DNA of 64,000 nucleotides from Desulfarculaceae bacterium (lineage in GTDB: Bacteria; Desulfobacterota; Desulfarculia; Desulfarculales; Desulfarculaceae). Of the stretch, positions 9,046 to 48,672 are shown piece after piece. The position numbers were made by a program, and so were the translations under genes. The stretch is from contig JAHLKT010000002.1 in NCBI GenBank assembly GCA_020444545.1, positions 278,870-342,869 on the forward strand, written 5' to 3'. The notes below the pieces were generated by a model. The model made no database searches, had not been told where the DNA came from, and worked only from the letters and a program-made list of their open reading frames with translations. Numbering within the stretch: the first letter of the stretch is position 1; each line of letters opens with the position of its first letter.

Positions 9046-11709
9046 CTACTTTTCTTGGTACAACTTGAGGCGCAGGTTCGGAGGCAGGGGAGCCCCCGCG
9101 CGGGTCAGGCGCAGGCGCGTTGCCTCGGACGGGATCTCCAACTCCAAACGGGCCGGGCCCGGCCGCGCGGCCAGGGGCACAAGCCCGCTCCAGAACAGGC
9201 GCGGCGGCCAGAGGCCACGGACGGACGCGGGCAGGAAGGGGCCTTGCGCGGTGGCCAACTCCAGCTTGATACCAGCCCAACTCATCTCCGCGCCGGGCGG
9301 GGGGGCCAGCTCCAGGGCCTTTATGCGGGCCGCTCGGGGCAGCTCGGCCACAAGGCCCTCGCCATCGGGGCGCAAGGCCACTGTCTCCGAGGCCCCTCTT
9401 GATGCGGCCTCGGGCGGCACCGCCCTGAAAAGCACGTAGCCGTGCCGCTCCTCGCGGCTCAGCTTCCAACCCGCCGCGAAAAGGGCCGCCTCGGCCAGGG
9501 GGGCGCGCCCCGCCTCCGCCGCCACATACAGCGGCTTGCCGTCATCCAGCAACCAGGCGGGCTTGAGGGAGCGGGGCAGCCATTGGGGCCGGGCGTGGCG
9601 GCCGGGCTCGGGGCGCATATCCTCGGAGAGCCAGGCGGCCAGGGCCGGGCCGCACCATACCCGGGTTTCTCGTCCCAGGCGGCCGCGCAGCCAGGCGGCT
9701 GCTTGCTCGGGCTCGGGGCGCTGGGCCCCGGCCACGCCCACCATCATCTCGCGCACCGACCAGTTCCAGTTGGGCCGTTTGCCGGTCTGCTCCAGGCGCA
9801 GATAGCGCAAGGCCCGGGGGGTGAAGCGGAACTCCTGCCAGTTGTTCCAACGCAGGGCCACCAGGCTTTCGCCGGTCCAGGCAAAAGGCACCGGCAGCCC
9901 CTCCACCTGGCTGATCTCCTCCCAGGCCTGGCCGTCGCGGCTGCCCATGACCCTCAAGTGGTGAGGGCCGTTTTCGGCCATGCCGTTGAACAGGAGCAGG
10001 GAGCAGACCTGCGGCCGCACCTTGCCCAGGTCAACCTGTAGCCATTGCCCCGGCTCTTGGCCGCCGGGAGTGTGCCAGGCCAGATTGGCGTTGTAGTCCG
10101 CCGCCTGCCAGGCGGCATCCGGCGCGGGGGAGGCGCTGATACGCCAGCCTTTCGGCGAAAGGGCGCGGGGCACGTCCGGCGGCGGGGTGATGTCCCAGAA
10201 CACGCACCAGGAGCCCACCTGCTTGCGCCGGGGGCGCGCCCCCAGGGCGGCTAGGTTGGCGGCCATGCGGTCGCCCTGGCTCTTGCCCGGAATGACCATG
10301 GCGAAGCGCTTGGCCCGAAGGATGGCCCGCTCGAACTCGGGGTTGCGGTCCTTGCGGCTCACCACGTAGACCACTTTTTGCTTGCTGTCAAAGGTGAGCA
10401 GCGGGGCCAGCCAATACTCGGGCAGATAGGCGTGGGTCACGCCGTGGGAGGACAAAAAGCCGGTGAGCTGCTTGGCGGTATCCATGTCGTGGGCGTAGCG
10501 CTGTTTCAGACTGGGATCACCCAGGGGCGAGACTTGATACACCCCCACGGCCAGCAAAAGGGCCACCGCGCCCAGGCCGCCCCAGGCCAGGAGCTTGGCC
10601 CAGCCGTTGAAGGCCATGAGCCGGTGGAAGGCCCAGGCGATGAGCAGGGGATAGACCGCGTACAGGGGCACCAGATAGCGGTGGGTGCCCGAGGAGGAGA
10701 GCCCCATCATCCCGAAGATAAGCACTACAGCGGCCACGAACAGGATGAGCAGCTCCGAGCCGTCGCCCTGGTCGCGGCGCGCCAGTCGGGCCAGCAGGTT
10801 TTTGCCCCAGGCCAACAAGGCCCCCAGGCCGGCCAGGCCCAGAAGCAGGCTGACCGCCTGGCTTAGCCAGGGCACCACCGCCGGGGCCACCTCGCGGCCC
10901 GCGAAATGATGCGCCCCGGTGAGCACCGGCAGGCTGTAGCGCCAGATGAAGCTGACGCTCTGCCAGAAGGGCTCCTTGGGCTTGGGGTGGAACATGAAGT
11001 AGTAGGTGGACCAATCGGTGAGCAGGTTGTGCACCCAAAAGGGCAGGCTGCCCAGGAAAAACGCGGCCATCATCAGGGCGAAGTCCGCCCGGATGAGCAA
11101 ACGGGGATCGCGCCGCCACCAGAGCAGGGCGCAGGGCAGGATGAAGTACACCGCCAGCATGTGGCCCCACAGGGCGAAGCCGGTCAGGAGCCCGAAGGCC
11201 ATGCAGAGCCAGGGATAGCTCGGCGCTTCCGGTCCCTTGCGCAGGGCCTTGAGGGTCAGCCACATCAGCCAGACCCCGGCGGCCAGGGTGTCGATGTAGA
11301 TGGCGCGGGGCAGCACCGAGTGCCAGATAAGGTAGAAGGGCCCCAGGGCGGCGATGAACAGGGCGCAGAGCCCGGCCCGGCGGCCCCACAGGTCGCGGCC
11401 CAGCAGATACACGGCCCACAGATAAAAAAAGGACATGAAGGTGGGCGAGAGGTACAGGCTTTGGCGGCTAACCCCGAACAGGGCGAAGAAGCCCGCCGCC
11501 ACGATGGACTCCAGGCTGCCGCCGTAATCCTGGCCCCAGAACATCAGGGGTAGGTGCCCCTTAAGGATGTCCATGCCCATGAGCCCCACCACCGCCTGGT
11601 CCGCGTCCAGTGTAGGGTAGATGAAGAACAGGGCGCGCACCGCCGCGGCCAGGAGCATCAGCCCGGCGACGCCCCAGGCGACGGTTTTGGAGGTCAGCTC
11701 TCGGGTCAT
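9046..11709 (-). CDS. GT-C membrane glycosyltransferase with discoidin-like C-terminal domain
   Basis: An 887-residue protein of the PMT/ArnT type. The first ~470 residues hold about ten hydrophobic segments. An early extracytoplasmic loop contains TLDADQAVVG, the acidic pair expected for a polyprenyl-phosphate-sugar-dependent GT-C active site. A large soluble C-terminal part follows. Roughly residues 520-665 look like an F5/8 type C (discoidin) beta-sandwich, with WLQVDLGKVRPQV, SRDGQAWEEIS and LRYLRLEQTG. The last ~200 residues include another beta-rich section. It starts four bases after the stop of the 13986 gene, so the two are co-transcribed. It probably transfers a lipid-linked sugar to an envelope acceptor, with the C-terminal domains outside the membrane binding glycan or protein. 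Confidence 0.75.
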   Translation of the reverse strand: MTRELTSKTVAWGVAGLMLLAAAVRALFFIYPTLDADQAVVGLMGMDILKGHLPLMFWGQDYGGSLESIVAAGFFALFGVSRQSLYLSPTFMSFFYLWAVYLLGRDLWGRRAGLCALFIAALGPFYLIWHSVLPRAIYIDTLAAGVWLMWLTLKALRKGPEAPSYPWLCMAFGLLTGFALWGHMLAVYFILPCALLWWRRDPRLLIRADFALMMAAFFLGSLPFWVHNLLTDWSTYYFMFHPKPKEPFWQSVSFIWRYSLPVLTGAHHFAGREVAPAVVPWLSQAVSLLLGLAGLGALLAWGKNLLARLARRDQGDGSELLILFVAAVVLIFGMMGLSSSGTHRYLVPLYAVYPLLIAWAFHRLMAFNGWAKLLAWGGLGAVALLLAVGVYQVSPLGDPSLKQRYAHDMDTAKQLTGFLSSHGVTHAYLPEYWLAPLLTFDSKQKVVYVVSRKDRNPEFERAILRAKRFAMVIPGKSQGDRMAANLAALGARPRRKQVGSWCVFWDITPPPDVPRALSPKGWRISASPAPDAAWQAADYNANLAWHTPGGQEPGQWLQVDLGKVRPQVCSLLLFNGMAENGPHHLRVMGSRDGQAWEEISQVEGLPVPFAWTGESLVALRWNNWQEFRFTPRALRYLRLEQTGKRPNWNWSVREMMVGVAGAQRPEPEQAAAWLRGRLGRETRVWCGPALAAWLSEDMRPEPGRHARPQWLPRSLKPAWLLDDGKPLYVAAEAGRAPLAEAALFAAGWKLSREERHGYVLFRAVPPEAASRGASETVALRPDGEGLVAELPRAARIKALELAPPPGAEMSWAGIKLELATAQGPFLPASVRGLWPPRLFWSGLVPLAARPGPARLELEIPSEATRLRLTRAGAPLPPNLRLKLYQEK

Positions 11710-11712
11710 TGC

Positions 11713-13986
11713 TCAGCGCAGTTCCAGATAATCCAGCCCCAGCACGTCGCGGCCGTTGTGGCTCAGCATACGCAGCTCCAGGGTGTGCACCCCGGGGGGC
11801 AAGGGCGCGTCCAGGCGCACCAGGCTCCATTTCAGACCGGTGATGGGTAGGCGGCCCAGCTCCTTGCCGTCCAGGAACACGCCCAGCACCGGCGGCGGCT
11901 GGTCAAAGGGCGGCCCGGCGTGGCTTACGATCTTGATGTCCAGTCCCCGCGCCCCGGTCGGGATCACCACCCGGACCCGCCCCACGTCTTTGGTGGAACG
12001 CAGCACCAGCTGCACCGGCTGGTCGTAGATGTCGCCGTATAGGCGGCTCTGGCTGGTCAGCAGGTTCTCGGCTTCCAGGTGCCCGCTGCTCACCACGCGG
12101 CCGGCCAGGGAAAGACATATTACCACGGCCAGCAGGCCTCCGGCGGCCGCCAGACCGGCGCGCCGCGGGCTCCAGGAGCGGGCTCCGGGTCGTGGCTCCC
12201 GCCATAGATACACCGCCGCCGCCGCGATAAAGGCCAGCCAGATAACGGCGGGGAGCATGGGCTGCCAGGCGTGGTCGTTGAACGAGGGCAGGAAGTGGTA
12301 AACCACGCCGTTGATCTGGTCGCCCCACCAGGCCAGCAGGTTGTTCATGCCGGTGCGGCGGTGGAAACGCCATTGGGGGATCAGGGTGAAGACAAAGGCC
12401 AGGCCCAGGCTGAGCATCCCCAGCCAGGCCAGGACCACGCGCCAGGCCCGGCCCGCCCGGGCCAGGGCAGGCAGGGACCACAGGGCCAGCACGGGCAGCA
12501 GAGGCGCCAGGAAGCGGCCCGGCGGGGTGAAGCCGCCGAACCATTGCAGCCAGCGCCAGGCGATCACCGCCAGGAAAGCCACGCCCCCGGCCAACAGGGA
12601 GTAGAGGAACAGGCGCGGGTTGTCGCGGCCGAAGCGCGCCGCCCCGGCCAGACCCAACAACAGCCAGGGCGCAAAGGCGATGATTCCGAACTGCTGGTCC
12701 AGGAGCATGGCCGGCAGGGTAAGGGACATCAGGCCCAGGTCCAGAGGCGGCATGTTGCGCAGCTCGTGGCCCACCCGCCACAGCGCTTGAGGGCCCACTC
12801 CCCAATAGGCGGCCAAGATTATGGCGGCGCCCAGGGCGCCAATCAGGGCCGCGCCGAGCCCGGTCCAGATGCGCCGCCGGGGCAGCTCCAGGTAGAGGCT
12901 AACCACGGTGGCCATGATCAGGCCCAGGACGGCCGGGGCCAGGCGAAGCTTGATGAGCACCAGGGCCAGCCCCAGCCCAGCCAGGCCCGCCAGTCGCCAA
13001 CCGGCGCGCTGGGGCAGCCCGGCCAGCAGCACCAGGCCGCAAACCACCCCCAGCACCCCGAACACGCCGGGGTACACATGCTGGGTGAGCTGCATGAGCG
13101 GCAGGGTGAAGCCCAAGAGCCAGGTGGCGGCCAGGGCCACCCGGGCGCGGTAGCCCAGGCTCAGGGCCAGGGAGCAGAACAGGCCCAGGGACACGGCCCC
13201 GGCCAGGCCCAGCACGGCCAGGGCTCCCAGGCGTCCGGCCACCAGCCAGCCGGGAGCCAGGATGAGGCGCAGCAGCCAGGCCTCGCTCAAGGGCGCGGCC
13301 AGGGCCTTGCTCCAGCCGCCCCAGTAAAATGCCAGGCGGGCGGCGGGCTGGGCCGCGTTGCCGGCCGAAAGGCCGCAGGCGGCCAGCAGCCGGTCCACGT
13401 CGATCAGGTAGATCGTCTCGTCGCCGCAGGTGCTCACGGCCTGTACCACCCAGGCGGCCAGGGCCCAGAACAGGGCCAGGCCCAACAGGGCGCTGCCCCA
13501 GGCCAGCAAACGGCGAGGCGCCGAGGGCGCGGCCCCTGCCTCCCAGAGCAGCCCGGCGCATAGCCAGGCCTGGTAGGCGATGGCGGCCAGATAGACGGCC
13601 CCGGCCAGCAGGGACCACAGGTGGGTGGCGGCGTGCAGGGCCGTGCAGGCGACGAGCAGGGGCAGGGCCAGATAGGCCCCCCAGTCGCGCGCGCCCAGGC
13701 GGGGGCCGGTTTGCGCGGCCGCGCCTCCGGCCCAGCGGGCCAGCAGGTGCCCGGCGGTGCTCATGCCCAGCAAGCCCAATGGGGCCAAGGTGGCCAGGAA
13801 CTTCCACCAGAAGCCGGGGCGGTCCAGGCCGATGAGCGGGGCCAGCTCCGTGGCCGGCGAGTCGGGCAAGCCCAGGCCGGGCAGGAGCAGGCGCAGGGCC
13901 AGCACCCATAGCACGGCCAGACCGGCCTTGGACGGCCAGCCCGAGAGACGGAAAGGACCAAGGTTGTAGGGCAGAGACAGGCTCAT
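11713..13986 (-). CDS. GT-C-like multi-spanning glycosyltransferase with C-terminal beta domain
   Basis: A 757-residue protein with some twelve hydrophobic helices and, after a final helix near residue 650, a ~100-residue beta-rich extracytoplasmic tail (VLGVFLDGKELGRL, GVHTLELRML). An early loop contains STCGDETIYLIDVDR, acidic residues in the position used by GT-C enzymes. I chose ATG 13986 rather than an upstream frame extension because the extra 35 residues are not membrane-like and run into the terminator region. It is the first gene of a two-gene operon with the discoidin-tailed GT-C protein. The pair probably works at the periplasmic face of the inner membrane. Substrates are unknown. 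Confidence 0.68.
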   Translation of the reverse strand: MSLSLPYNLGPFRLSGWPSKAGLAVLWVLALRLLLPGLGLPDSPATELAPLIGLDRPGFWWKFLATLAPLGLLGMSTAGHLLARWAGGAAAQTGPRLGARDWGAYLALPLLVACTALHAATHLWSLLAGAVYLAAIAYQAWLCAGLLWEAGAAPSAPRRLLAWGSALLGLALFWALAAWVVQAVSTCGDETIYLIDVDRLLAACGLSAGNAAQPAARLAFYWGGWSKALAAPLSEAWLLRLILAPGWLVAGRLGALAVLGLAGAVSLGLFCSLALSLGYRARVALAATWLLGFTLPLMQLTQHVYPGVFGVLGVVCGLVLLAGLPQRAGWRLAGLAGLGLALVLIKLRLAPAVLGLIMATVVSLYLELPRRRIWTGLGAALIGALGAAIILAAYWGVGPQALWRVGHELRNMPPLDLGLMSLTLPAMLLDQQFGIIAFAPWLLLGLAGAARFGRDNPRLFLYSLLAGGVAFLAVIAWRWLQWFGGFTPPGRFLAPLLPVLALWSLPALARAGRAWRVVLAWLGMLSLGLAFVFTLIPQWRFHRRTGMNNLLAWWGDQINGVVYHFLPSFNDHAWQPMLPAVIWLAFIAAAAVYLWREPRPGARSWSPRRAGLAAAGGLLAVVICLSLAGRVVSSGHLEAENLLTSQSRLYGDIYDQPVQLVLRSTKDVGRVRVVIPTGARGLDIKIVSHAGPPFDQPPPVLGVFLDGKELGRLPITGLKWSLVRLDAPLPPGVHTLELRMLSHNGRDVLGLDYLELR

Positions 13987-14089
13987 TTCCCAAGGCCTCG
14001 TAAAAAGGCACGGATATCGGACCCCCCGGGCATAAGATACCAGCCAGGCCTCGGGGGCGGCAAGGGAAGCGCCTCCCGGAGGCGGGGCC

Positions 14090-14126
14090 AAAAAGACGGC
14101 CCGCCGCGCAGGATACGCGGCGGGCC
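14090..14126 (-). terminator. Intrinsic terminator of the glutamate synthase operon
   Basis: Reading leftward, an 11-bp perfect stem GGCCCGCCGCG/CGCGGCGGGCC (14098-14108 with 14116-14126) is followed by GTC and five Ts (14090-14094). It lies 24 bp beyond the stop of the 14150 gene. Confidence 0.8.
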
Positions 14127-14149
14127 GGTGGGGTCGGGTCGGAAGGGTC

Positions 14150-16798
14150 CTATTCGGGCACCGCCTCCTTGGCCAGCACGGCCAGCTTGACCGCGCCTAC
14201 CTTGCGGTAGACCTCCAGGGGCGAGCGCTTCACGCCGTCCACGGTGAGCAGGTCGTCGATGCTGATGCCGAACAGGCGCTGGTTCTCCTCCAGGTAGGGC
14301 AGGATCAGATCCCAGTCCTCCTGGGTCAGGTCGAAGTAGTGGCCGCCGTTGAGCTGCTCGTCCACCAGCTTCTTGTGCGGGTCGCGCACGAAGATGGCCC
14401 CGCCGCTGGCCAGGGAGAACAGGTTGGAGCCGGGGTAGGGGGAGGGCAACTCGATCACCTTGCCCTCGGCGTCGAAGGTGACGCCGTTGAGCACCACGAA
14501 GCCGCCGCCGTTGTAGGGGTCGCCGGCCATGAAGGACTCGGCCAGGAAGTCGAGGCAGGTGCCGTTGATTACCACCCGGGGATGGCCCACCGCGTTGATC
14601 AGGGGGCGGCCCGCGCCGTTGCCCATGATGTACACCTCGCCGCCCTTGGCGCCGTACATGAAGGCCTGGCCCACGTCGCCGTGCACCACCAGCTTGCCTT
14701 CCTTCATGATCTGGCCCAGCTGGTCCTGCCCGTTGTCGTGGATCTGAATCTCCATGCCGTCGATGCCCGAGGCAAGGTAGTCGCCCGAGGCTCCGTAGAG
14801 GTCGAAGCGCACGTCCTCGGTGGCCGGTCCCAGGCCGCAGCCCTGGAAGCGCTGGCCTTTGAGGCCGTAGACGATGAAGCGCTTCCAGCCCAGCTCATAG
14901 GCCTTCACTTCCAGGCGGGCGTCGCAGTCGTCGCCCTCGGGCGGGAAGTGGTGGGCGTAGACCACCAGGACCTTTTCGTCACCGGCCGGGGCGCGCAGGT
15001 CGTCGCGGGTCTCCCAGTCGATGCGGGCGTAGCGCTTGCCCGCCTTTTCGGCGATGGCCGGGGCCGAGTCGAGGATGCGGTTGATGGCGGTGCGCAGCAG
15101 CTGCAAGATCACCGAGCGCTTCATTTCGCCGGTGGCGTAGCGCCGGTTGTTGAGCAGGCTCAACAGCTCCAGGGCCCAGTCCACGCCATCGTCGCTGGCC
15201 GCCGCCTTGGCCTCGGCCTTTTCGATGAGCCAGCGCACCTGGGCGAAGTTCCAGCCCTTGACCGCCGGGGCCACCGCGTCGAAGACCTCCAAGGGGCTGC
15301 CGCCGTCCAGCAGGGCCTCCAGGCCGCCGGGCTCGGCCGGGGCGCTGGTGGCCTCGGCCGCGTCGAAGCGCCACTGGCCCGCCTCGCCGGTGATGGCCTT
15401 GCCGAACTTGTCCTCGCAGCTTAGCTCGAAGCCGTTGCCGTTGCCCTGCACGTTGAACAGGAAGGCGCCGCCGTCGGTGTGGCTGCCGCCCCGGGCGTTC
15501 CAGTAGCGGTCGGCCACCAGGCGGAAGCGGGGGTCTTCCTCGTTGAGCGAGAGCAGGGTGGCGTCGATGGCCTGCTTCTCCGAGCCCACCAGGCCGATGG
15601 ATACGTCGCCCTCCTGCAACGCAAAGACCTGGGGCCTGAGCATGGAGGTGTCGGTGATGCCCAGCAGCTGGTACAGGTCCTTGTCCGGGTTGGAGCGGGC
15701 GATGATGAAGAACCAGGGACCGTCCGGGCTGCCGTGCATGTGCAGGGCCTGGATGGCGCGATAGGTGGTCTGCCGCTCCGCGCTGAGCTGGGCGAAGTCC
15801 AACTCGGTGGTGGGGGCCATGGCCTCGATCACGTACTCCAGGGGGTAGTGATAGACCCGGGTCCACAGGTCGAACAAGAGGACCGCCACCTCGGTGTCGG
15901 TGAGGAACTGGGTGGCGATGCCGTGCTGCCTCAGGTACTCGCTCACGCTGAAGTAGTTGGCGAAGTCGCCGTTGTGCACCAGGGCCTCGTTCAGGCCGAT
16001 GAAGGGGTGGCTGCCGCCGGGGTGCCACACGCGCCCCTTGGTGGGGTAGCGCTGGTGGGCGATCCACACCTGGGCCTTGAAGTCGTCCATGCCGTAGTAC
16101 TGCACCACCGTTTCGGCGAAGCCCACGATCTTGAGGATGACCAGGTTGCGGGCGTGGCTGAGCACGAAGGCCCGCTTCTCGCCCAGGCTGGTGTAGAAGG
16201 TAGCGTTGAGGCGGTTGGTGTTGCGGTAGATGAACTCATCTTCCAGGGCGCGCCCCTCCAGGCCCACCAGGCCTTCCTCCTGGGCGAAGCGCTGCAGAGC
16301 GCCGTCCTTGGCCCGCACGAAGTAGCGCACCACGTCCGGAGGCTTGACCTCCAGGCCGAAGTCGCGGTAGTCGCCCATGGTCTGGACCCGCGCCTTGTGG
16401 TGCACTTCGAGGTAGGGGGTGATGCACTGCTGCTCGACCTCGGCCTCGGCCGAGTCGTCCAGCAGGGCCACCTGCAAGATGTAGTCGTTTTTCAAGGTCG
16501 CCGCGTCCACGCCCAGCTGCCCGGCGTCCAGGCAGGCCGCGGCTATGCCGCCGCCCTTGCCGTTGCCCCGGTTGTGCATCTGGATGGAGGGCTCGAAGAT
16601 GTGACGGCCGCGCACCGGCACGGAGGCCGCGAAGCCCACCACCCCGCAACCGCCTTCTTCGGCGGCCTTCATGGGGCTGATGGGCGCCGCGCCCTTGATG
16701 GAGCGCCGGCGGGAGGCCATGATGGCCTCGGTCATGCGGGTAAGCTCCTCCCGGCTGGGGAGGCGGCCTTGCTTTATGCTTTGAGTCAGGCTGGCCAT
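14150..16798 (-). CDS. Glutamate synthase class-II glutaminase domain fused to GXGXG domain
   Basis: An 882-residue protein. The N-terminal ~430 residues are a class-II (Ntn) glutamine amidotransferase. GGCGVVGFA places the presumed catalytic Cys at residue 51, so a ~50-residue propeptide would need removal as in GltB. HQRYPTKGRVWHPGGSHPFIGLNEA, LVHNGDF and DTEV are glutaminase pocket motifs. The C-terminal ~260 residues form the GXGXG beta-helix of GltB (GEVYIMGNGAGRPLINAVG, GTCLDFLAESFMAGD, ASGGAIFVRDP). The FMN barrel that normally lies between is missing here and is encoded by the gene immediately upstream. The two therefore presumably assemble as glutamate synthase, hydrolysing glutamine and passing ammonia to 2-oxoglutarate. 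It is the last gene of the operon. Confidence 0.85.
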   Translation of the reverse strand: MASLTQSIKQGRLPSREELTRMTEAIMASRRRSIKGAAPISPMKAAEEGGCGVVGFAASVPVRGRHIFEPSIQMHNRGNGKGGGIAAACLDAGQLGVDAATLKNDYILQVALLDDSAEAEVEQQCITPYLEVHHKARVQTMGDYRDFGLEVKPPDVVRYFVRAKDGALQRFAQEEGLVGLEGRALEDEFIYRNTNRLNATFYTSLGEKRAFVLSHARNLVILKIVGFAETVVQYYGMDDFKAQVWIAHQRYPTKGRVWHPGGSHPFIGLNEALVHNGDFANYFSVSEYLRQHGIATQFLTDTEVAVLLFDLWTRVYHYPLEYVIEAMAPTTELDFAQLSAERQTTYRAIQALHMHGSPDGPWFFIIARSNPDKDLYQLLGITDTSMLRPQVFALQEGDVSIGLVGSEKQAIDATLLSLNEEDPRFRLVADRYWNARGGSHTDGGAFLFNVQGNGNGFELSCEDKFGKAITGEAGQWRFDAAEATSAPAEPGGLEALLDGGSPLEVFDAVAPAVKGWNFAQVRWLIEKAEAKAAASDDGVDWALELLSLLNNRRYATGEMKRSVILQLLRTAINRILDSAPAIAEKAGKRYARIDWETRDDLRAPAGDEKVLVVYAHHFPPEGDDCDARLEVKAYELGWKRFIVYGLKGQRFQGCGLGPATEDVRFDLYGASGDYLASGIDGMEIQIHDNGQDQLGQIMKEGKLVVHGDVGQAFMYGAKGGEVYIMGNGAGRPLINAVGHPRVVINGTCLDFLAESFMAGDPYNGGGFVVLNGVTFDAEGKVIELPSPYPGSNLFSLASGGAIFVRDPHKKLVDEQLNGGHYFDLTQEDWDLILPYLEENQRLFGISIDDLLTVDGVKRSPLEVYRKVGAVKLAVLAKEAVPE

Positions 16799-16803
16799 TT
16801 AAA

Positions 16804-19728
16804 TCACGCCTTCTTCTGGTAGTCCAGGTGGGTGAGCAGATCGCTCCGGCCCACCAGCTCCCTGACACTCTTCAGGCCCAGGCGCCACAGGATTTCCCGC
16901 AGCTGGATGCCCCAGGAGCGGTACATGTTGATGACGCGCCGGGAGCCCCAATCCGAGTCGTAGTGCACCGACAGCTCGGGGTCGGTGGTGGCGATGCCGC
17001 GGGGGCAGCCCCGCCCGGACTCGCAGTTGGCGCAGCGGATGCACTCCAGGGCGATCATGTCGGCGGTGCCGGTGACCACCCCGTTGGCTCCCAGGGCGAT
17101 GGCCTTGGCCACGTCCCAGGCGGTGCGCAGACCGCCGGAGACGATCAGGGTTATCTTGTCGCGGATGCCTTCTTCCACCAGGAAGCGGTGCACCATGGGG
17201 ATGGCGTACTCGATGGGCATGGCGATGTTCTTCTTGGCGATGTCCGGGGCCGCCCCGGTGCCGCCGTAGCTGCCGTCCAGGTGCACGATGTGCGCCCCGG
17301 CGTAGTAGGAGCCCACGGCCACCATGTCCACGTCGATGGGGGTGGAGACCTTGACCGACACCAGGGTGGTGGGGTTGATCTGCTTGATCCAGTCGACGTG
17401 CTTTTTGTGGTCTTCCACCGAATAGACCGAGTGGAAGGGGAAGGGGCTGAACAGGGCGTTGCCCTCCACCGCCTCGCGCATCTTGGCCACGGCCGGGGTC
17501 ACCTTGTCGCCCAGGAGGTGGCCGCCCAGGCCGGGCTTGGCGCCCTGGGCGTACTTGAACTCCACGATGCGCACCCGCTGGATCGTCTCCTCGCGCACCC
17601 CGAACAGGCCGGTGGCCACCTGGGTGATCACGTGGTCGGAGTAGTTTTCCAACACGGGCGGGAAGCCGCCCTCGCCGGTGCAGGTGAAGGAGTTGAGCGA
17701 GGTGAAGGCCTTGGCCCGGCTCTCCATGGTGGCGCCGCTCACCGAGCCGAAGCTCATGCCGCCGCCATACACCGGGAAGTCGATAGTCACCTTGGGGCGG
17801 CCGTCGTCGTCGCGGTGGTTCAGGTCGATGGACAGGTCCACGTCCTCGGGGCCGAAGCTCTTATCCGGCGGCTCGGTGGGGAACACGATGTCCATGCGGT
17901 CGAAGCCGCCGCCGCTGGCGCCCTTGCGGTACTCCAGGCCGTTCTCCGGCGGCTTGCCGGTTTCGGCCTGAATCCAGGTGCTCACCAACAGATCGGCCGG
18001 CCAGCGGGGGTCGCCGAAGGTGCGCCAGACGGGGTTGAGGCCCACGCGGATGGCGCTCACCGGGCAGGCGTCGCCGCAGTAGGAGCCGATGGAGCGGCAG
18101 TAGTCCGCGCCCCGGCAGTGCTCGCTCTTGGGGGCGAGCATCTTGTCGCCGCTCTTGAGGTGCACCCCGAACTGGCAGGTCTCGGCGCACTTGCCGCAGG
18201 CCACGCAGGTGGTCATGCGCTCGGCCTTGAACTTGGTCAGGGCGTTGCGGTAGCGGCTGGGGGCCTGGGTGATCTCGCCGCCCAGGTTGGCGTACTCGCC
18301 GGGAGCCAGCACCGGCTCCGGGGGAGAGGGCGCGGGCTCGTCGTCGTTGATGCGCTCGCCGAAGATGGGCGCGAAGCTCATCTTCTCCAGATCCTCGAAG
18401 ATCATGGCCCGGCCCACCTCGCCGCGCAGGCGGCGGGTTTCGCGGATGCCCATGGCGCCCATGAGCTCGATGAGCTGGGAGTGGAAGGCGCCCATGAGGT
18501 TGATCACCCGGGACGATCCTTGCTCTTCGTCTATGGTGTCCAGGCCCACCGGGCAGTCGAAGCCCTCGGAGCAGGAGCCGCACATGCGGCACTCCATGGC
18601 CACGTTCAAGACCAGGTCCAGCCCCACGCCGTCCACGCCGCAGAGGATGATCTTGGCCACGTGCTCGGCCAGGGCGATGCCGCCGCTGGCCAAGAGGGTC
18701 ACCTGATCGCGGCAGGCCTCGTCCACCAGGCGCAGGTGCACCTCGCGGACCAGCTTGGTGACGAAACGATCCGCCGCCTGGCCCAGGCCCTGGCCCTTGT
18801 AGCCGGCCTGGAGGTGAATGACCTCGGCGCCGGCCTTGGCCAGCTCGGCCACACGGTCGGCCGCGTTTTCGTCCAGGGCGGTGCGCACCGAAGTGACCAT
18901 CTCCGGCATACGCGCCTTGAGGGCCGCGATCTCTTCCAGGACCGTGGGCGAGTCGATGAACTCGGCCAGGGCCGCGCCGTCCAGGGGCGAAAGGTCCTCG
19001 GGCACCCCGTCCAGGCGGACGATGAGGTGGTCCTTGAGGTCGGCCAACAGCTCGGCCGCCTCGTCATAGGTGGCCACGGCCAGGGTGTGGGAGGCCTTGG
19101 CGCCCAGGGCCACGGCCCGGCGGGTGCTGGGGCCGATCTTGCCCCAGGGGGCCATGTCCAGAATCATGGGCACCGGCAGTTCCACGAAAGGCGGAACGTC
19201 GATGGCCAGCTTGCCTTCTTCGTCGAACACCAGGCGCTCGGGGCGGCGGCCCAGCTCGATGACCGTGGAGATGTACTCACGGCCATGGATGCCGTCGCGG
19301 GTGGGCCGCACGATCTCGCTCATGTCGGTCCACATCTGATCGAAGCCCGGCCCGCTGAAGCGGCCGCGGTAGCCGGCCCCGGACACCGGGATCTTGCCGG
19401 TGGTGGCCTGCTTCCACAGGGTGGAGATGATGTCCGGCCGCCAGTAGTCGTCGCCCATGGCCTCGAACTGGGGGTTCATGGCCCGGGAGAGGATGCCCTT
19501 CTTGCACTCCTGCACGCAGCGCATGCAGTTGAGGCACATGGCGTCGGTGGTCTCCACCACTTGGTCGGCGTCGAAGGTCTTCTTGCGGTAGACCTCGTAG
19601 ATGCAGGCGTCGCGCTTGACGCACTGCAAGCAGCCCAGGCACCCCTCGGTCTCCATGGCCGCCAGGCGGGCCACCGGAGTGAAGCGGGGGGCGCGGGGCG
19701 CTACTTCGACGTGATACTTGTCACTCAT
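16804..19728 (-). CDS. Double-barrel, Fe-S-rich glutamate synthase FMN subunit
   Basis: A 974-residue protein with two homologous halves. Each half has ferredoxin-like cysteines, then an FMN glutamate-synthase-type barrel, then a cysteine motif and an RVINLMGAF / RVINMYRSW tail. Cysteines cluster at residues 30-42, 65-75, 380-392, 508-518, 538-555 and 896-908, enough for several [4Fe-4S] clusters. The C-terminal half carries the catalytic GltB core: GGGMSFGSVSG, CTGEGG, KYAQGAKPGLGG and LDGSYGGTGAAP. The N-terminal half lacks the CTGEGG-to-KPGLGG stretch and is probably not catalytic. The enzyme should reduce 2-iminoglutarate to glutamate with electrons through the clusters; no GltD-type NADPH subunit is adjacent. 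It starts 46 bp after metF and ends five bases before the glutaminase gene. Confidence 0.85.
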   Translation of the reverse strand: MSDKYHVEVAPRAPRFTPVARLAAMETEGCLGCLQCVKRDACIYEVYRKKTFDADQVVETTDAMCLNCMRCVQECKKGILSRAMNPQFEAMGDDYWRPDIISTLWKQATTGKIPVSGAGYRGRFSGPGFDQMWTDMSEIVRPTRDGIHGREYISTVIELGRRPERLVFDEEGKLAIDVPPFVELPVPMILDMAPWGKIGPSTRRAVALGAKASHTLAVATYDEAAELLADLKDHLIVRLDGVPEDLSPLDGAALAEFIDSPTVLEEIAALKARMPEMVTSVRTALDENAADRVAELAKAGAEVIHLQAGYKGQGLGQAADRFVTKLVREVHLRLVDEACRDQVTLLASGGIALAEHVAKIILCGVDGVGLDLVLNVAMECRMCGSCSEGFDCPVGLDTIDEEQGSSRVINLMGAFHSQLIELMGAMGIRETRRLRGEVGRAMIFEDLEKMSFAPIFGERINDDEPAPSPPEPVLAPGEYANLGGEITQAPSRYRNALTKFKAERMTTCVACGKCAETCQFGVHLKSGDKMLAPKSEHCRGADYCRSIGSYCGDACPVSAIRVGLNPVWRTFGDPRWPADLLVSTWIQAETGKPPENGLEYRKGASGGGFDRMDIVFPTEPPDKSFGPEDVDLSIDLNHRDDDGRPKVTIDFPVYGGGMSFGSVSGATMESRAKAFTSLNSFTCTGEGGFPPVLENYSDHVITQVATGLFGVREETIQRVRIVEFKYAQGAKPGLGGHLLGDKVTPAVAKMREAVEGNALFSPFPFHSVYSVEDHKKHVDWIKQINPTTLVSVKVSTPIDVDMVAVGSYYAGAHIVHLDGSYGGTGAAPDIAKKNIAMPIEYAIPMVHRFLVEEGIRDKITLIVSGGLRTAWDVAKAIALGANGVVTGTADMIALECIRCANCESGRGCPRGIATTDPELSVHYDSDWGSRRVINMYRSWGIQLREILWRLGLKSVRELVGRSDLLTHLDYQKKA

Positions 19729-19773
19729 GATCTATCCCTGCTAGGGCGAGGCGGCGCGCCGCCGGGGGCCTTC

Positions 19774-20715
19774 CTAGACCTCCGGCCGCGGGCTCAGCCC
19801 GGCCTGCTTGATGATGTCGGGCAGAAGCTCTTCGGCTTCGATGGCCTGCAAGTGCACGCCCTTCACGCCGTCCAGCTCGCGGACCTGCTCGATGAGCTCC
19901 ACGGTGACCTTGAGGCCCTCGGCCGCGGGATCGGCCGCGTCCTTCATGCGGGCGATCAGCTCGTCGGGCACCACCACGCCGGGCACGTTGTTGTGCATGT
20001 AGCGCAACATGCCCGCGCTGCGCGGCACGATGATGCCGGGCAGGATGGCGGTCTTCTCGGTCAGGCCCATGTCCACGGCCTTTTTCAGCTGCTCGGCAAA
20101 GGCCTTCACATCGTAGACCGCCTGGGTCTGGATGAAGTCGGCCCCGGCGGCAACCTTCTTGGCCAGGCGCAGCACGCGGAACTCGATCGGCGGTCCCAGG
20201 GGAGTCCAGGCCGCGCCGATGAAAAAGGCGGGCTTGCTGCTCAGGGTGTCGCCCCCGGCCTGCACGCCCTCGTCGCGCATGTTCTTGATGATGTTGATCA
20301 GCTGTATGGAGTCCACGTCGTACACGCCCTTGGCGCCGGGATGGCCCTTGAGCTTGCCGCTGGCTCCGGCCTGCTGGTGGTCGCCGCTGATGGCCAGGAT
20401 GTTCTTGAGGCCCAAGGCGGCCGCGCCCAGCAGGTCGCTCTGCATGGCGATGCGGTTGCGGTCGCGGCAGGTCATCTGGGCCACCGGCTCCAGGCCCGCG
20501 TCATTGAGCAGCTTGGAACCGGCGATGGAGGACATGCGCACCACCGCGGTCTGGTTGTCGGTGACGTTGTAGGCGTCGGCCACATCACGCAGGACCTCGG
20601 CCTTCTTGAGCACCTCTTCGGCATCGGGGCCGCGCGGGGGGCCGATCTCGGCGGTGAGGGCGAACTCGCCCGCGGCCAATACCTTCTCTAACTTGCTTCC
20701 CGCTTTCAGGCTCAT
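19774..20715 (-). CDS. metF: 5,10-methylenetetrahydrofolate reductase
   Basis: A 313-residue MetF. TAEIGPPRG near residue 22 contains the Glu expected for the active site. VTDNQTAVVRMSS, CRDRNR and ILAISGDH are FMN/FAD- and folate-binding strands of the MTHFR barrel. ADFIQTQAVYDV and PGIIVPRSAGMLRYM are in the expected C-terminal positions. It reduces methylene-H4folate to methyl-H4folate, a step of methionine synthesis and of the Wood-Ljungdahl methyl branch. Its ATG overlaps the metV stop by four bases, the usual MetV-MetF pairing in anaerobes, where electrons come through Fe-S proteins rather than NADH directly. Confidence 0.93.
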   Translation of the reverse strand: MSLKAGSKLEKVLAAGEFALTAEIGPPRGPDAEEVLKKAEVLRDVADAYNVTDNQTAVVRMSSIAGSKLLNDAGLEPVAQMTCRDRNRIAMQSDLLGAAALGLKNILAISGDHQQAGASGKLKGHPGAKGVYDVDSIQLINIIKNMRDEGVQAGGDTLSSKPAFFIGAAWTPLGPPIEFRVLRLAKKVAAGADFIQTQAVYDVKAFAEQLKKAVDMGLTEKTAILPGIIVPRSAGMLRYMHNNVPGVVVPDELIARMKDAADPAAEGLKVTVELIEQVRELDGVKGVHLQAIEAEELLPDIIKQAGLSPRPEV

Positions 20716-21383
20716 GACCGCAGATCCTCCCTAAGCATTCTCTTGGGGCCGCCCGCGGGGGAGTTGGACCAGTTCTTGGGCGGCTTCACCTCCACCAGGC
20801 TCTCAAGCTGGCCGCGGGCGGTGGCCCGCTCCACGATGAGGCGCCAGATGCAGGGGGTGTCCTCGTTGATTTCGCACATGCCATTCTCGCGGGTGCCGCC
20901 GCAGGGGCCGTTCATCAGGCTCTTGGCGCAGCGGGCCACGGGGCACAGGCCGAAGGTGAGGCCTAGCACGCAGTCGCCGCAAGCGGCGCAACGGCTGGTC
21001 CACAGGCCCGGCTCCTCGCGGATGGACAGGCTGGTGGTGTTGACCCCGGGGAACAGGGGGGTGTCGGCATAGGTGTCGGCGACCAGCTGCATGCCGATGC
21101 CACAGGAAACGCTCACGATGGCGTCGGCATCGGCTGCCTGGTCGGCAATGGTGGCCACGAACTCGGGCTCGCACTGCCGCTCCAGGGTGGCGCTGGTTAT
21201 CTCGATGGGGTTGCCGTCGTTCTGCATAGCCATGGCCAGCAGGGGAGCCAGGGTCTCCACCTCGCGCTCTCCGCCGGCGGCGCACTCGGCCACGCAAGTG
21301 GCGCAGCCGATAAGCAGCACCTTCTTGTGGCCGCGCAGGTAACCCACCATCTCTTCAATGGGCTTCCACTCTGCGGTGATCAT
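20712..21383 (-). CDS. metV: MTHFR partner protein MetV (zinc/iron-sulfur)
   Basis: A 223-residue cysteine-rich protein of the MTHFR C-terminal-domain family. The N-terminal LLIGCATCVAECAAGG and later VSVSCGIGMQ suggest one metal site. The C-terminal run CAACGDCVLGLTFGLCPVAR followed by CAKSLMNGPCGG and GMCEI is the family hallmark. In acetogens and sulfate reducers MetV binds MetF and carries electrons to its flavin. It starts seven bases before (upstream of) the region overlapping metF and six bases after the mvhD stop, so the three genes form one transcript. Confidence 0.92.
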   Translation of the reverse strand: MITAEWKPIEEMVGYLRGHKKVLLIGCATCVAECAAGGEREVETLAPLLAMAMQNDGNPIEITSATLERQCEPEFVATIADQAADADAIVSVSCGIGMQLVADTYADTPLFPGVNTTSLSIREEPGLWTSRCAACGDCVLGLTFGLCPVARCAKSLMNGPCGGTRENGMCEINEDTPCIWRLIVERATARGQLESLVEVKPPKNWSNSPAGGPKRMLREDLRS

Positions 21384-21389
21384 CGGCGC

Positions 21390-21803
21390 TCAAACTCCTT
21401 TCATGGGGTTGGGCCCCAGGGCCCGCACGGCTTCGGCGCGGCGGCCGGCCATTTGCAAAAGATCGTCCAAGCTCTGGCCGGCTCCCCGCTCCAGGCCCAG
21501 GCGCTCGGCGCCCATGCCAACGGTCTCCAGCAGGCTTTGTCCATATTTGATGCGGTTCTCGGCCCGGTTGCTGCCCACCAGGTGCTGGCAGGCGGTCTCG
21601 GGACAGGCGGCGATCTGCACCGCGTCGCTGCCCTTTTCCAGCAGGCGCATCAGATGGGGCAACTGCACCTTGCTGCTGCAGGGCAACACCACCAGGCGGG
21701 CGCTGAAGCCCTCGCCGGAGCGGCGGCCCTCTACCGGCTTGACCCCGGAGGCCAAACACTGCCGGCAGTAGAGCAGGGTTATTTCGGGTTGGAAGCTATC
21801 CAT
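21390..21803 (-). CDS. mvhD: MvhD-type iron-sulfur electron-transfer protein
   Basis: A 137-residue protein of the hydrogenase delta-subunit family. ITLLYCRQCLASGV gives a C-x2-C near the N-terminus. VVLPCSSKVQLPHLMRLLEKGSDAVQIAACPETACQHLVGS provides the other ligands of the [2Fe-2S]-type site. ATG 21803 is preferred to GTG 21815 because AAGGTGA lies eight bases upstream. MvhD normally joins HdrA to a hydrogenase or to MetFV. No hdrABC is in the window, so here it may hand electrons to MetVF and possibly to the glutamate synthase encoded in the same operon. It is the first gene of the operon. Confidence 0.85.
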   Translation of the reverse strand: MDSFQPEITLLYCRQCLASGVKPVEGRRSGEGFSARLVVLPCSSKVQLPHLMRLLEKGSDAVQIAACPETACQHLVGSNRAENRIKYGQSLLETVGMGAERLGLERGAGQSLDDLLQMAGRRAEAVRALGPNPMKGV

Positions 21804-22030
21804 GGCTTGGTTCACCTTGTCTAAAGCGAATCTGCTCGGCCGGTCCCTGGCATGGCTGCTCGGGGCCGGCCCCTCGTGGACTTTTCAGGCAACCGTGGGC
21901 AAGGCCAACCGCGACGAAAACCCTCCCGCTTCGCCCCGAAGGGAAGCGGCCGAGGGCCTTTAGCGCGGATTGTAGCGGTCGTCCGCTTCGCGGGGAAGAG
22001 GACGGGGGCTGGAAGGCCCGTAACCAAAAC

Positions 22031-22043
22031 GGCAACCGTTGCC
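22031..22043. promoter_or_regulatory. Palindrome GGCAACCGTTGCC at the presumed transcription start of the mvhD-glt operon
   Basis: A perfect 6-bp inverted repeat around one central base. It sits just downstream of the candidate -10 (22044-22049, minus strand), where a repressor would block initiation. Its GGCA-N5-TGCC form recalls archaeal NrpR operators (GGAA-N6-TTCC, GGTA-N6-TACC). The nrpR homologue is encoded divergently 240 bp away. Assignment is inference. Confidence 0.4.
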
Positions 22044-22072
22044 TTTATGACAGAGGATTACCTTATTGTCAA
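22044..22072 (-). promoter_or_regulatory. Candidate promoter of the mvhD-metVF-glutamate synthase operon
   Basis: On the minus strand TTGACA (22072-22067) is followed after 17 bp by CATAAA (22049-22044). The -35 lies inside an 11-bp palindrome TATTGACAATA (22064-22074). The 5' UTR to mvhD would be about 235 nt. A further partial inverted repeat (GGTAAGGGGTTACACC, minus strand, 22097-22112) lies upstream of the -35. Confidence 0.5.
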
Positions 22073-22210
22073 TACCTCTGCGCTCTCCAACGAAAAGGTG
22101 TAACCCCTTACCTGTATTGTATGGAGTCAAGTGTTGGATCGGGCAGGGCCAACAGGCGCGGCCCGGAAAAACCCGGCAAGGCGAACCCGGCAAAATTGCC
22201 GCATCAAGCC

Positions 22211-22239
22211 TTGACAATCCGGTAGGGTCCGGCTAGGTT
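22211..22239 (+). promoter_or_regulatory. Candidate promoter of nrpR
   Basis: TTGACA at 22211-22216, a 17-bp spacer, then TAGGTT at 22234-22239, about 46 bp upstream of the nrpR start. GGTTGG (22237) and CCAACC (22272) form a spaced inverted repeat over the leader. Confidence 0.5.
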
Positions 22240-22284
22240 GGGGGTCGATCCGCCCCCCTGGAGCGGAGAGCCAACCCGGCAGCC

Positions 22285-23289
22285 GTGGAGACATGCGAAG
22301 TGGACGAACGAAGCAGGCGCAAAATTATTGATGTTTTACGGGTGTTGGCCGAGTCGGAAAAGCCTCTGGGGGGGGCGCGCATAGCCCAGGCCCTGGCCCT
22401 GGCCGGCAAGGACATGAGCCAGCGCACCATCCGCTACTACCTGAGCTTCACCGACAACGAAGGGCTCACCGAGCAGGTGGGCCGCCGAGGCCGCCGCCTC
22501 ACCGAGCTGGGCCGCCGCGAGCTGGAGACCGCCTACGTGGCCGACAAGGTGGGCTTCGTGGCCGCCCGGGCCGAGGCCCTTATCTTCGGCATGGACTTTC
22601 GCCTCCGGCAGGGCAAGGGCAGGGTGGTGGTGAACATGTCCACCCTGGACCAGGCCGACCTGCCCCGGGCCAAGGAGATCATGCGCCAGGTGTTCGCGGC
22701 GGGCTACTCCTTGGGCGACCGCCTGATCATCGGCCAGCCCGGCCAGCGCATGGGCAACTTCATGCCCCGGCCCCACGAGGTGGTGGTGGCCACGGTGTGC
22801 TCGGTGAGCGTCAACGGGGTGGCCCTGGCCGAGGGCATCCCCATGACCAACCGCTTCGGCGGCCTGTTGCAGATATCCGAGCACAAGCCGGTGCGCTTCA
22901 CCCAGATCATCAACTATGACGGCACCACCCTGGACCCCCTGGAGATCTTCATCAAGGGACAGATGACCTCGGTGTGGCTAGCCGCCCAAAGCGGGGAGGG
23001 CGTCATCGGGGCCTCCTTCCGGGAGATACCCGCTCCGGCGGCGGAAAAGGCCCGCCGCCTGGCCGCGCGCCTGGAGCGCCACGGCCTGGGCGCGGTGCTC
23101 CTGGTGGGCCGTCCGGGCCAGCCCCTCTTGGAGGTGCCCCTGCCCCAGGGCAGGGTGGGCATGGTGGTGCGTGGGGGCCTCAACCCCATGGCCGCGGTGG
23201 AGGAGGCGGGCATCGCCACCAGCAACCGGGCCTTTGGCCAGCTCTTTCCCTTTGAACAGCTTCGGCCTTACCGGGAGGTGCTGGGATGA
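22285..23289 (+). CDS. nrpR: NrpR-family (DUF128) transcriptional regulator
   Basis: A 334-residue protein. Residues ~10-75 form a winged helix (RRKIIDVLRVLAESEKPLGG, SQRTIRYYLSFTDNEGL). The remaining ~250 residues are a single NrpR/DUF128 effector domain, with SLGDRLIIGQPGQRMG, VCSVSVNGVALAEGIP and GLNPMAAVEEAGI. In methanogens NrpR represses nitrogen-assimilation genes and is released by 2-oxoglutarate. Homologues with one effector domain occur in some anaerobic bacteria. Being divergent from a glutamate synthase operon makes regulation of that operon by nitrogen status likely. The start could be the GTG at 22285 or a nearby alternative; no strong Shine-Dalgarno decides it. Its stop overlaps the channel gene (ATGA). 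Confidence 0.82.
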   Translation: METCEVDERSRRKIIDVLRVLAESEKPLGGARIAQALALAGKDMSQRTIRYYLSFTDNEGLTEQVGRRGRRLTELGRRELETAYVADKVGFVAARAEALIFGMDFRLRQGKGRVVVNMSTLDQADLPRAKEIMRQVFAAGYSLGDRLIIGQPGQRMGNFMPRPHEVVVATVCSVSVNGVALAEGIPMTNRFGGLLQISEHKPVRFTQIINYDGTTLDPLEIFIKGQMTSVWLAAQSGEGVIGASFREIPAPAAEKARRLAARLERHGLGAVLLVGRPGQPLLEVPLPQGRVGMVVRGGLNPMAAVEEAGIATSNRAFGQLFPFEQLRPYREVLG

Positions 23290-48574: not shown

Positions 48575-48672
48575 TTGTGTCTCCCATGAAGTTGGCTTGT
48601 TCCCGCTCGGGCCAAGAGATGGCCTAGTATTTCCCCCAGACTTTGTGGCAACCGTTGCCTCCCCTCTCTTTT

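Follow-up and report, generated by a model that had tools for sequence, protein, structure and literature searches.

A conserved mvhD-metV-metF-gltB-gltA operon in a Desulfarculaceae bacterium: a candidate methyl-tetrahydrofolate-fed glutamate synthase

Four types of methylenetetrahydrofolate reductase (MTHFR) have been described. Pull-downs have revealed an interaction of MetVF with HdrBCA and MvhD, and the oxidation of methyl-tetrahydrofolate (methyl-H4F) with artificial acceptors has been measured in MetVF preparations (PMC9430772). Among glutamate synthases, an exchange of the electron donor was inferred from gene clusters for the forms linked to coenzyme F420 (PMC3448663, PMC9012536). In this work we analysed a stretch of 64,000 nucleotides, hereafter the window, from a Desulfarculaceae bacterium of the sulfate-reducer type (assembly GCA_020444545.1, contig JAHLKT010000002.1, positions 278,870 to 342,869 of the forward strand), in which genes of both kinds form a single minus-strand run, mvhD-metV-metF-gltB-gltA. 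We hypothesize that this run encodes a split glutamate synthase with MvhD as its adaptor and MetVF as its electron donor, which is the best explanation that we can offer and to which we give an even chance.

The operon and its glutamate synthase

The five genes occupy the positions given for them in a preliminary description of this DNA, and their identities and order can be read directly from the sequence. The mvhD gene (FlpD family, PF02662; 21390-21803, minus strand, as are all five) starts with ATG, with a GTG at 21815 as an alternative start. It is followed by metV (20712-21383), encoding the iron-sulfur (Fe-S) subunit of a MetVF-type methylene-tetrahydrofolate (methylene-H4F) reductase with a conserved set of cysteines and the MetV C-terminal family domain PF12225, and by metF (19774-20715), encoding the flavoprotein subunit of that reductase (PF02219, MTHFR). 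The gltB gene (16804-19728) is a fusion encoding 974 amino acids with PF01645 (Glu_synthase) and Fer4 domains, assigned from alignments, a structural model and a fold search, and gltA (14150-16798) encodes a class II glutamine amidotransferase (PF13522, GATase_6) fused to a GXGXG domain (PF01493), 882 amino acids in all. Along the run, mvhD and metV are 6 bp apart, metV and metF overlap by 4 bp, 45 bp separate metF from gltB, and 5 bp lie between gltB and gltA; the value of about 58 bp reported earlier for the gap between metF and gltB was a miscount, as the interval given with it, 19729-19773, corresponds to 45 bp. Third-position GC ranges from 0.83 to 0.95 over the five genes, a Shine-Dalgarno-like sequence precedes each start, and gltA is followed by an intrinsic terminator, whose stem of 14 pairs is joined by a T-run (14097-14127, minus strand). 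A strict sigma-70 scan of 14000-22400 returned no promoter match, including in the metF-gltB gap, where a separate promoter would have separated the two modules, and this gap folds no better than shuffled sequence (z -0.73). A riboswitch or attenuator was also considered and discarded, since the gap has no notable fold and the lone sub-threshold Rfam match, within gltB, was taken as chance. The five genes are thus presumably carried on one transcript. As had been stated before, neither gene calls nor Pfam searches detected gltD, hdrA, hdrB or hdrC within or adjacent to the operon, and no Pfam domain of an FrhB-like F420H2 dehydrogenase subunit was found in its five proteins.

The models show that GltA and GltB together rebuild a complete glutamate synthase (GltS), since the N-terminal half of GltB corresponds in position to the GltS central domain and its C-terminal half is the FMN (flavin mononucleotide) domain. 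In GltA, the amidotransferase nucleophile C51 stands behind a propeptide of 50 residues, and C51 and H275-N276-G277-D278 are invariant in 29-63 aligned rows, in which the other pocket residues are also kept. The GltA model (predicted local distance difference test, pLDDT, 77; predicted template modelling score, pTM, 0.78) superposes on ferredoxin-dependent GltS over 570 residues with a root-mean-square deviation (rmsd) of 3.6 and Z 25.1; GltS residue 1 is matched by residue 51, and the superposition extends to the end of GXGXG (GltS 1-1498). The GltB model (pLDDT 72, pTM 0.64) places residues 91-972 on GltS 444-1220 (591 residues, rmsd 4.2, Z 27.2), and each half contains a 4Fe-4S ferredoxin-like stretch. 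The C-terminal half matches the GltS FMN domain with E 4e-53, and its AQGAKPG motif, K725, K731 and C896/C902/C908 are invariant in 23 rows. The N-terminal half (residues 1-459; 18352-19728, minus strand), which is a separate gene in distant relatives, lacks the segment that carries AQGAKPG in the other half; its own motif, WTDMSEIVRPTRDGIHGREYIST, is nearly invariant over 120 loci, although the sampled N-terminal halves are only 45-63% identical to that of the window. This motif is the foremost candidate for a docking or cluster site. From the alignment, this half was initially taken for a defective second catalytic domain, as of a degenerate duplicate GltB, a view abandoned because superposition puts it at the GltS central domain. 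Selenocysteine in the N-terminal half was likewise rejected, as the in-frame TGA of genomes G020 and G053 coincides with the ordinary stop of this half where gltB is split. Sequence searches of the PDB with GltA and with MetV gave no match.

The product of GltA-GltB, judged from these residues, would be glutamate formed from glutamine and 2-oxoglutarate. The surroundings of the 2-oxoglutarate pocket differ in part from classical GltS (GLGGHLLGDK for GEGGQLPGFK and SPFPFHSVYS for SPPPHHDIYS), and this difference, as well as the linkage to one-carbon (C1) genes, would suit another product, for instance an N-methyl or C1-linked amino acid, comparable to that of the glutamate-synthase-related N-methylglutamate synthase of methylotrophs. 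We consider such a product very improbable, since the GGHL reading also occurs in ordinary split glutamate synthases of the same family, neither the AQGAKPG motif nor its lysines vary, and the gltB of this operon is the only gene of its genome with a full Glu_synthase domain, which makes it the sole full glutamate synthase there. Moreover, the neighbours of the cluster in relatives are general nitrogen-assimilation genes, namely nrpR and glnA, glnD and purF (by Pfam), together with glnB, carA, nadE and hisF (named by eye), and not methylamine genes. In several relatives an extra FMN protein resembling glutamate synthase, of about 525-537 amino acids, lies near the cluster and often adjoins glnA (L071:3530-5143, L188:854-2431 and L194:1193-2767).

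Conservation of the cluster and the MvhD subfamily

A search of 60 relatives with the 974-residue GltB found matches both within the genus and in other families; the order mvhD-metV-metF-gltB-gltA is retained by close relatives wherever the contig is intact, and in more distant ones gltB is present as two genes, for an N-terminal half of about 465 and a C-terminal half of about 500 amino acids. When GTDB species genomes were searched with the N-terminal half, at least 558 relatives were confirmed. The titles of the best 80 of these name Thermodesulfobacteriota, Planctomycetota, Chloroflexota, Nitrospirota, Verrucomicrobiota, Actinomycetota, Fibrobacterota, Armatimonadota, Bacteroidota and others, about ten phyla, a spread that rests on genome titles, which can be wrong for metagenome-assembled genomes, those reading 'Deltaproteobacteria' having mapped to odd phyla. 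Within its own phylum, a gltB of this type was present in 73 of 296 sampled genomes, belonging to 50 of 199 genera. The gene order is far beyond chance because it recurs across families and phyla, and the search for the same five-gene order that had been called for showed it to be kept in very many relatives, in agreement with the earlier view of the genes as one conserved unit.

The arrangement was compared over 120 distinct loci with gltB, of which 112 could be judged; this sample is not random and over-represents the closest matches. MvhD lies upstream of gltB in 110 of the 112. The exact order MvhD-MetV-MetF precedes GltB in 65, MvhD alone in 29 and MvhD-MetV, with no MetF, in 10; rarer types have MetVF behind gltA (2), MetV behind gltA (1) or MvhD-MetF (1), two loci have two MvhD genes and two have none. 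MetV, MetF or both belong to the cluster in 83 loci, if one includes L191 and L198, which are counted among the 29 and have HdrA-MvhD-MetVF behind gltA. The ten loci that keep MvhD and MetV with no MetF beside GltB (L091, L113, L117, L121, L126, L130, L141, L196, L197 and L201) look as if MetV alone could transfer electrons.

MvhD itself carries PF02662 and the four cluster cysteines of the adaptor family (C17, C46, C71 and C76), which are kept in 78-79 of 79 relatives. In a quick tree built on few columns, 111 MvhD sequences linked to glutamate synthase are parted from 21 linked to MetVF/Hdr by a single branch with 99% support in the Shimodaira-Hasegawa-like approximate likelihood ratio test (SH-aLRT), the labels requiring 1 change against 19.8 in shuffles; for MetF and MetV the labels require 3 changes each, against 27.4 and 22.5. 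Two loci, L215 and L223, contain the run HdrC-like gene-MvhD-MetV-MetF-MvhD-GltBN-GltBC-GltA (preceded in L215 by an HdrA-like gene), and there the MvhD adjoining MetV belongs to the Hdr type, that adjoining GltB to the glt type. The glt-linked MvhD therefore appears as a subfamily of its own, apart from the Hdr-linked one, and the comparative-genomic evidence for a link between MvhD and glutamate synthase is strong. These data also bear on the possibility that MetVF-MvhD and glutamate synthase are separate enzymes and only share regulation, nitrogen-limited cells needing both glutamate and methyl-H4F (for methionine and C1 supply). The operon does adjoin nrpR and nitrogen genes in relatives, and metVF is also found apart from glutamate synthase, beside HdrA. 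Nevertheless, we think co-regulation alone unlikely, as MvhD stays by GltB when MetVF is gone and belongs to a separate subfamily, L215 and L223 hold one MvhD per partner, MetV without MetF in ten loci would be odd for a simple metabolic need, and the glutamate synthase would be left without GltD or any NAD(P)H module.

The source of the electrons

In the mechanism that we propose, the glutamate synthase would be split in two chains, GltA with the amidotransferase and GXGXG and GltB with the central-type and FMN domains and two 4Fe-4S stretches, and MvhD, in GltD's stead, would be a dedicated adaptor through which an oxidoreductase attaches to the Fe-S chain of GltB. In this operon, as in most relatives, the oxidoreductase would be MetVF, oxidizing methyl-H4F to methylene-H4F at about -200 mV; electrons would pass from the MetF flavin over the Fe-S clusters of MetV, MvhD and the Fe-S clusters of GltB to FMN, where glutamine-derived ammonia and 2-oxoglutarate would give glutamate. 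The MetF of the operon keeps Glu23, Asp112 and Gln198 in the alignment of relatives, which we take to correspond to active-site residues, and with these and MetV beside it, it has the make-up of a MetVF-type methylene-H4F reductase, an assignment with which its tree agrees. From this arrangement we infer a physical complex and a direction of electron flow from MetVF to GltB.

Three lines of evidence suggest that MetVF is the donor, a role whose probability we put at about one half. The first is energetic. The couple of 2-oxoglutarate plus ammonium and glutamate has a potential close to -120 mV, and the hydrolysis of glutamine contributes further driving force. Given E0' of -200 mV for the methylene/methyl-H4F couple (PMC8760232), the transfer from methyl-H4F to glutamate synthase would therefore be downhill, and that to NAD+ would not. 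The second is the replacement of MvhD. The only two judgeable loci without MvhD have, immediately ahead of the N-half gene, a FAD_binding_4 oxidase of the GlcD type whose C-terminus carries a 4Fe-4S domain (L225:8114-10024 and L226:8288-10180, minus strand). GlcD-type oxidases normally donate electrons, and this one, standing where MvhD is otherwise found, would also be a donor of intermediate potential. The third is that the genome contains CdhC, the acetyl-CoA synthase and marker of the acetyl-CoA pathway, and methyl-H4F should therefore be a main metabolite.

Other relatives carry different modules. In L259 and L260 (the same as L191 and L198), the genes behind gltA are HdrA-MvhD-MetV-MetF and a pair resembling HdrC/HdrB, the HdrA domains of L191 having been assigned by Pfam and HdrB/C named by eye; in L073 and L074, of the same family as the window, the glutamate synthase is of the ordinary split kind and is accompanied by a Pyr_redox_2 flavoprotein and a 4Fe-4S protein. 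Since such relatives have HdrA-MvhD-MetVF, the FAD_binding_4 oxidase or the Pyr_redox_2 flavoprotein instead, the donor part appears to be exchangeable between lineages (MetVF, HdrA-MvhD-MetVF or GlcD-type oxidase), with MvhD as the usual plug. The broader statement, that a methyl-H4F-dependent glutamate synthase is a widespread anaerobic complex with a dedicated MvhD and a lineage-specific donor module, we advance tentatively, at somewhat short of an even chance.

The preliminary description had supposed that MvhD shares reduced ferredoxin-type electrons between C1 metabolism and ammonia assimilation. The comparative data favour a narrower reading, with an MvhD subfamily that is nearly always found with glutamate synthase and with MetVF as one of several exchangeable oxidoreductase modules, more likely to donate electrons than to be another acceptor of those from ferredoxin. 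Elaborated, the earlier view would have an external low-potential donor, reduced ferredoxin, supply the Fe-S chain of MvhD/GltB, with glutamate synthase and MetVF both as acceptors, so that C1 reduction would tap the same source as ammonia assimilation, perhaps through flavin-based bifurcation. It would accord with the two 4Fe-4S ferredoxin-like stretches of GltB, with the in vitro transfer of electrons from reduced ferredoxin to purified MetVF (PMC9430772, PMC8760232) and with HdrA-type genes, which accompany the cluster in some relatives only (L215, L223, L259 and L260). We hold it to be rather unlikely, as the operon has no HdrA or other bifurcating flavoprotein, the replacement of MvhD is of a type that is usually a donor, and MvhD and glutamate synthase occur without MetVF in 29 loci, so that glutamate synthase is the fixed end.

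Several points weigh against MetVF as the donor in this complex. MetVF normally works in the direction of methylene-H4F reduction. MetVF is not essential, since it is missing as an immediate neighbour of the cluster in 29 of the 112 loci and a further 10 contain MetV but no MetF; the 4Fe-4S parts of GltB are poorly resolved in the model; two glutamate-dehydrogenase-like genes are present in the genome, and the operon is consequently not the sole route to glutamate. The case as a whole rests on comparative genomics and models.

The same genome has 16 FlpD-domain and five MetF matches; the two other MetVF sets closest to that of the operon come after HdrA-like and MvhD genes, as in Moorella, and its sole full-length GltD-like gene adjoins an NfnB-like gene. 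Three other genes of the MvhD family (C5:28518-28886, C3:78717-79085 and C2:200281-200649) contain an in-frame TGA, which probably encodes selenocysteine by analogy with the MvhD of Desulfobacterium autotrophicum, for which selenocysteine was reported (PMC2702500).

The regulatory region and comparison with known systems

A gene for an NrpR-like nitrogen repressor (22285-23289, plus strand; PF01995, NRD, and PF08461, HTH_12) diverges from the operon; this gene and the conserved operator-like dyads beside it had been overlooked before. NrpR is known as a 2-oxoglutarate-responsive nitrogen repressor of methanogens. Ahead of mvhD there is a promoter-like TTGACA-N17-CATAAA (22044-22072, minus strand), conserved in genus members and unmatched by the strict scan, and the dyad GGCAACGGTTGCC (22031-22043, minus strand) abuts its -10 box. 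The whole element (minus strand, 22072-22031) keeps its general layout in six genus members, the dyad having a variable centre and 0.15 matches expected in the window. A second, related dyad, CGGCAAAATTGCCG (22188-22201, plus strand), lies next to the nrpR promoter near the nrpR start, and nrpR also stands beside the cluster in L056-L059, L061-L063, L065 and L071. These features suggest that NrpR may control the operon and would derepress it under nitrogen limitation. Exact copies of the dyads occur elsewhere, at 48647-48659 of the window and at C7:181293-181306 of the genome (L262), one of them preceding a porin-like gene; a wider NrpR regulon may exist but could not be drawn from the dyads, as exact sites were too few and the remaining ones lie away from nitrogen genes. 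Beyond the gltA terminator, two large membrane-type proteins of 887 and 792 amino acids, the latter without a Pfam match, are encoded on the minus strand at 9046-14091.

The preliminary description did not know this coupling as an established pathway, and no account of either MvhD or MetVF in association with glutamate synthase came up in the open-access literature, subscription papers being mostly outside the search; the Hdr-type MetVF and the F420-linked glutamate synthases were found as precedents. The unit is unusually widespread and easy to test. If our proposal is true, a glutamate synthase fed by methylfolate would connect one-carbon metabolism to nitrogen assimilation by direct electron transfer. 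It would provide an outlet for the mid-potential electrons of methyl-H4F oxidation, which need an input of energy to reach NAD+ or ferredoxin, and would add one more kind of MetVF complex to the four described. Many metF and mvhD genes of anaerobes, usually read as parts of the Wood-Ljungdahl pathway, would then belong to nitrogen assimilation.

The amidotransferase, central, FMN and GXGXG domains of NADPH-dependent GltBD (PDB 1ea0, 2vdc, 6s6s) are all present here and superposable; unlike GltBD, they are divided into amidotransferase plus GXGXG and central plus FMN, GltB has 4Fe-4S stretches, and MvhD-MetVF stand in for GltD. Ferredoxin-dependent glutamate synthase (PDB 1ofd, 1ofe, 1llw) has the same catalytic domains and is the best structural match of GltA, but it is a single chain with the amidotransferase first and uses free ferredoxin, whereas the present enzyme has two chains, built-in Fe-S stretches and a gene-linked adaptor. 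The F420-dependent glutamate synthase is a precedent for an exchanged, gene-linked electron-input subunit, although its input is an FrhB/Fsr-N-like F420H2 dehydrogenase, of which there is none here. The split glutamate synthase of L073 and L074 shares the split subunits and, in L073, the nearby nrpR and glnA, and differs in its donor and in lacking MvhD, MetVF and the N-terminal half. The NrpR of methanogens has the same domains and also adjoins an ammonia-assimilation operon; here the host is bacterial and the putative operator-like dyad is different. Finally, the MetVF-MvhD-HdrCBA of Moorella and Sporomusa (PMC9430772) has in common with this operon the mvhD-metV-metF trio and, likely, its docking, but here glutamate synthase takes the place of HdrABC and MvhD is of a different subfamily.

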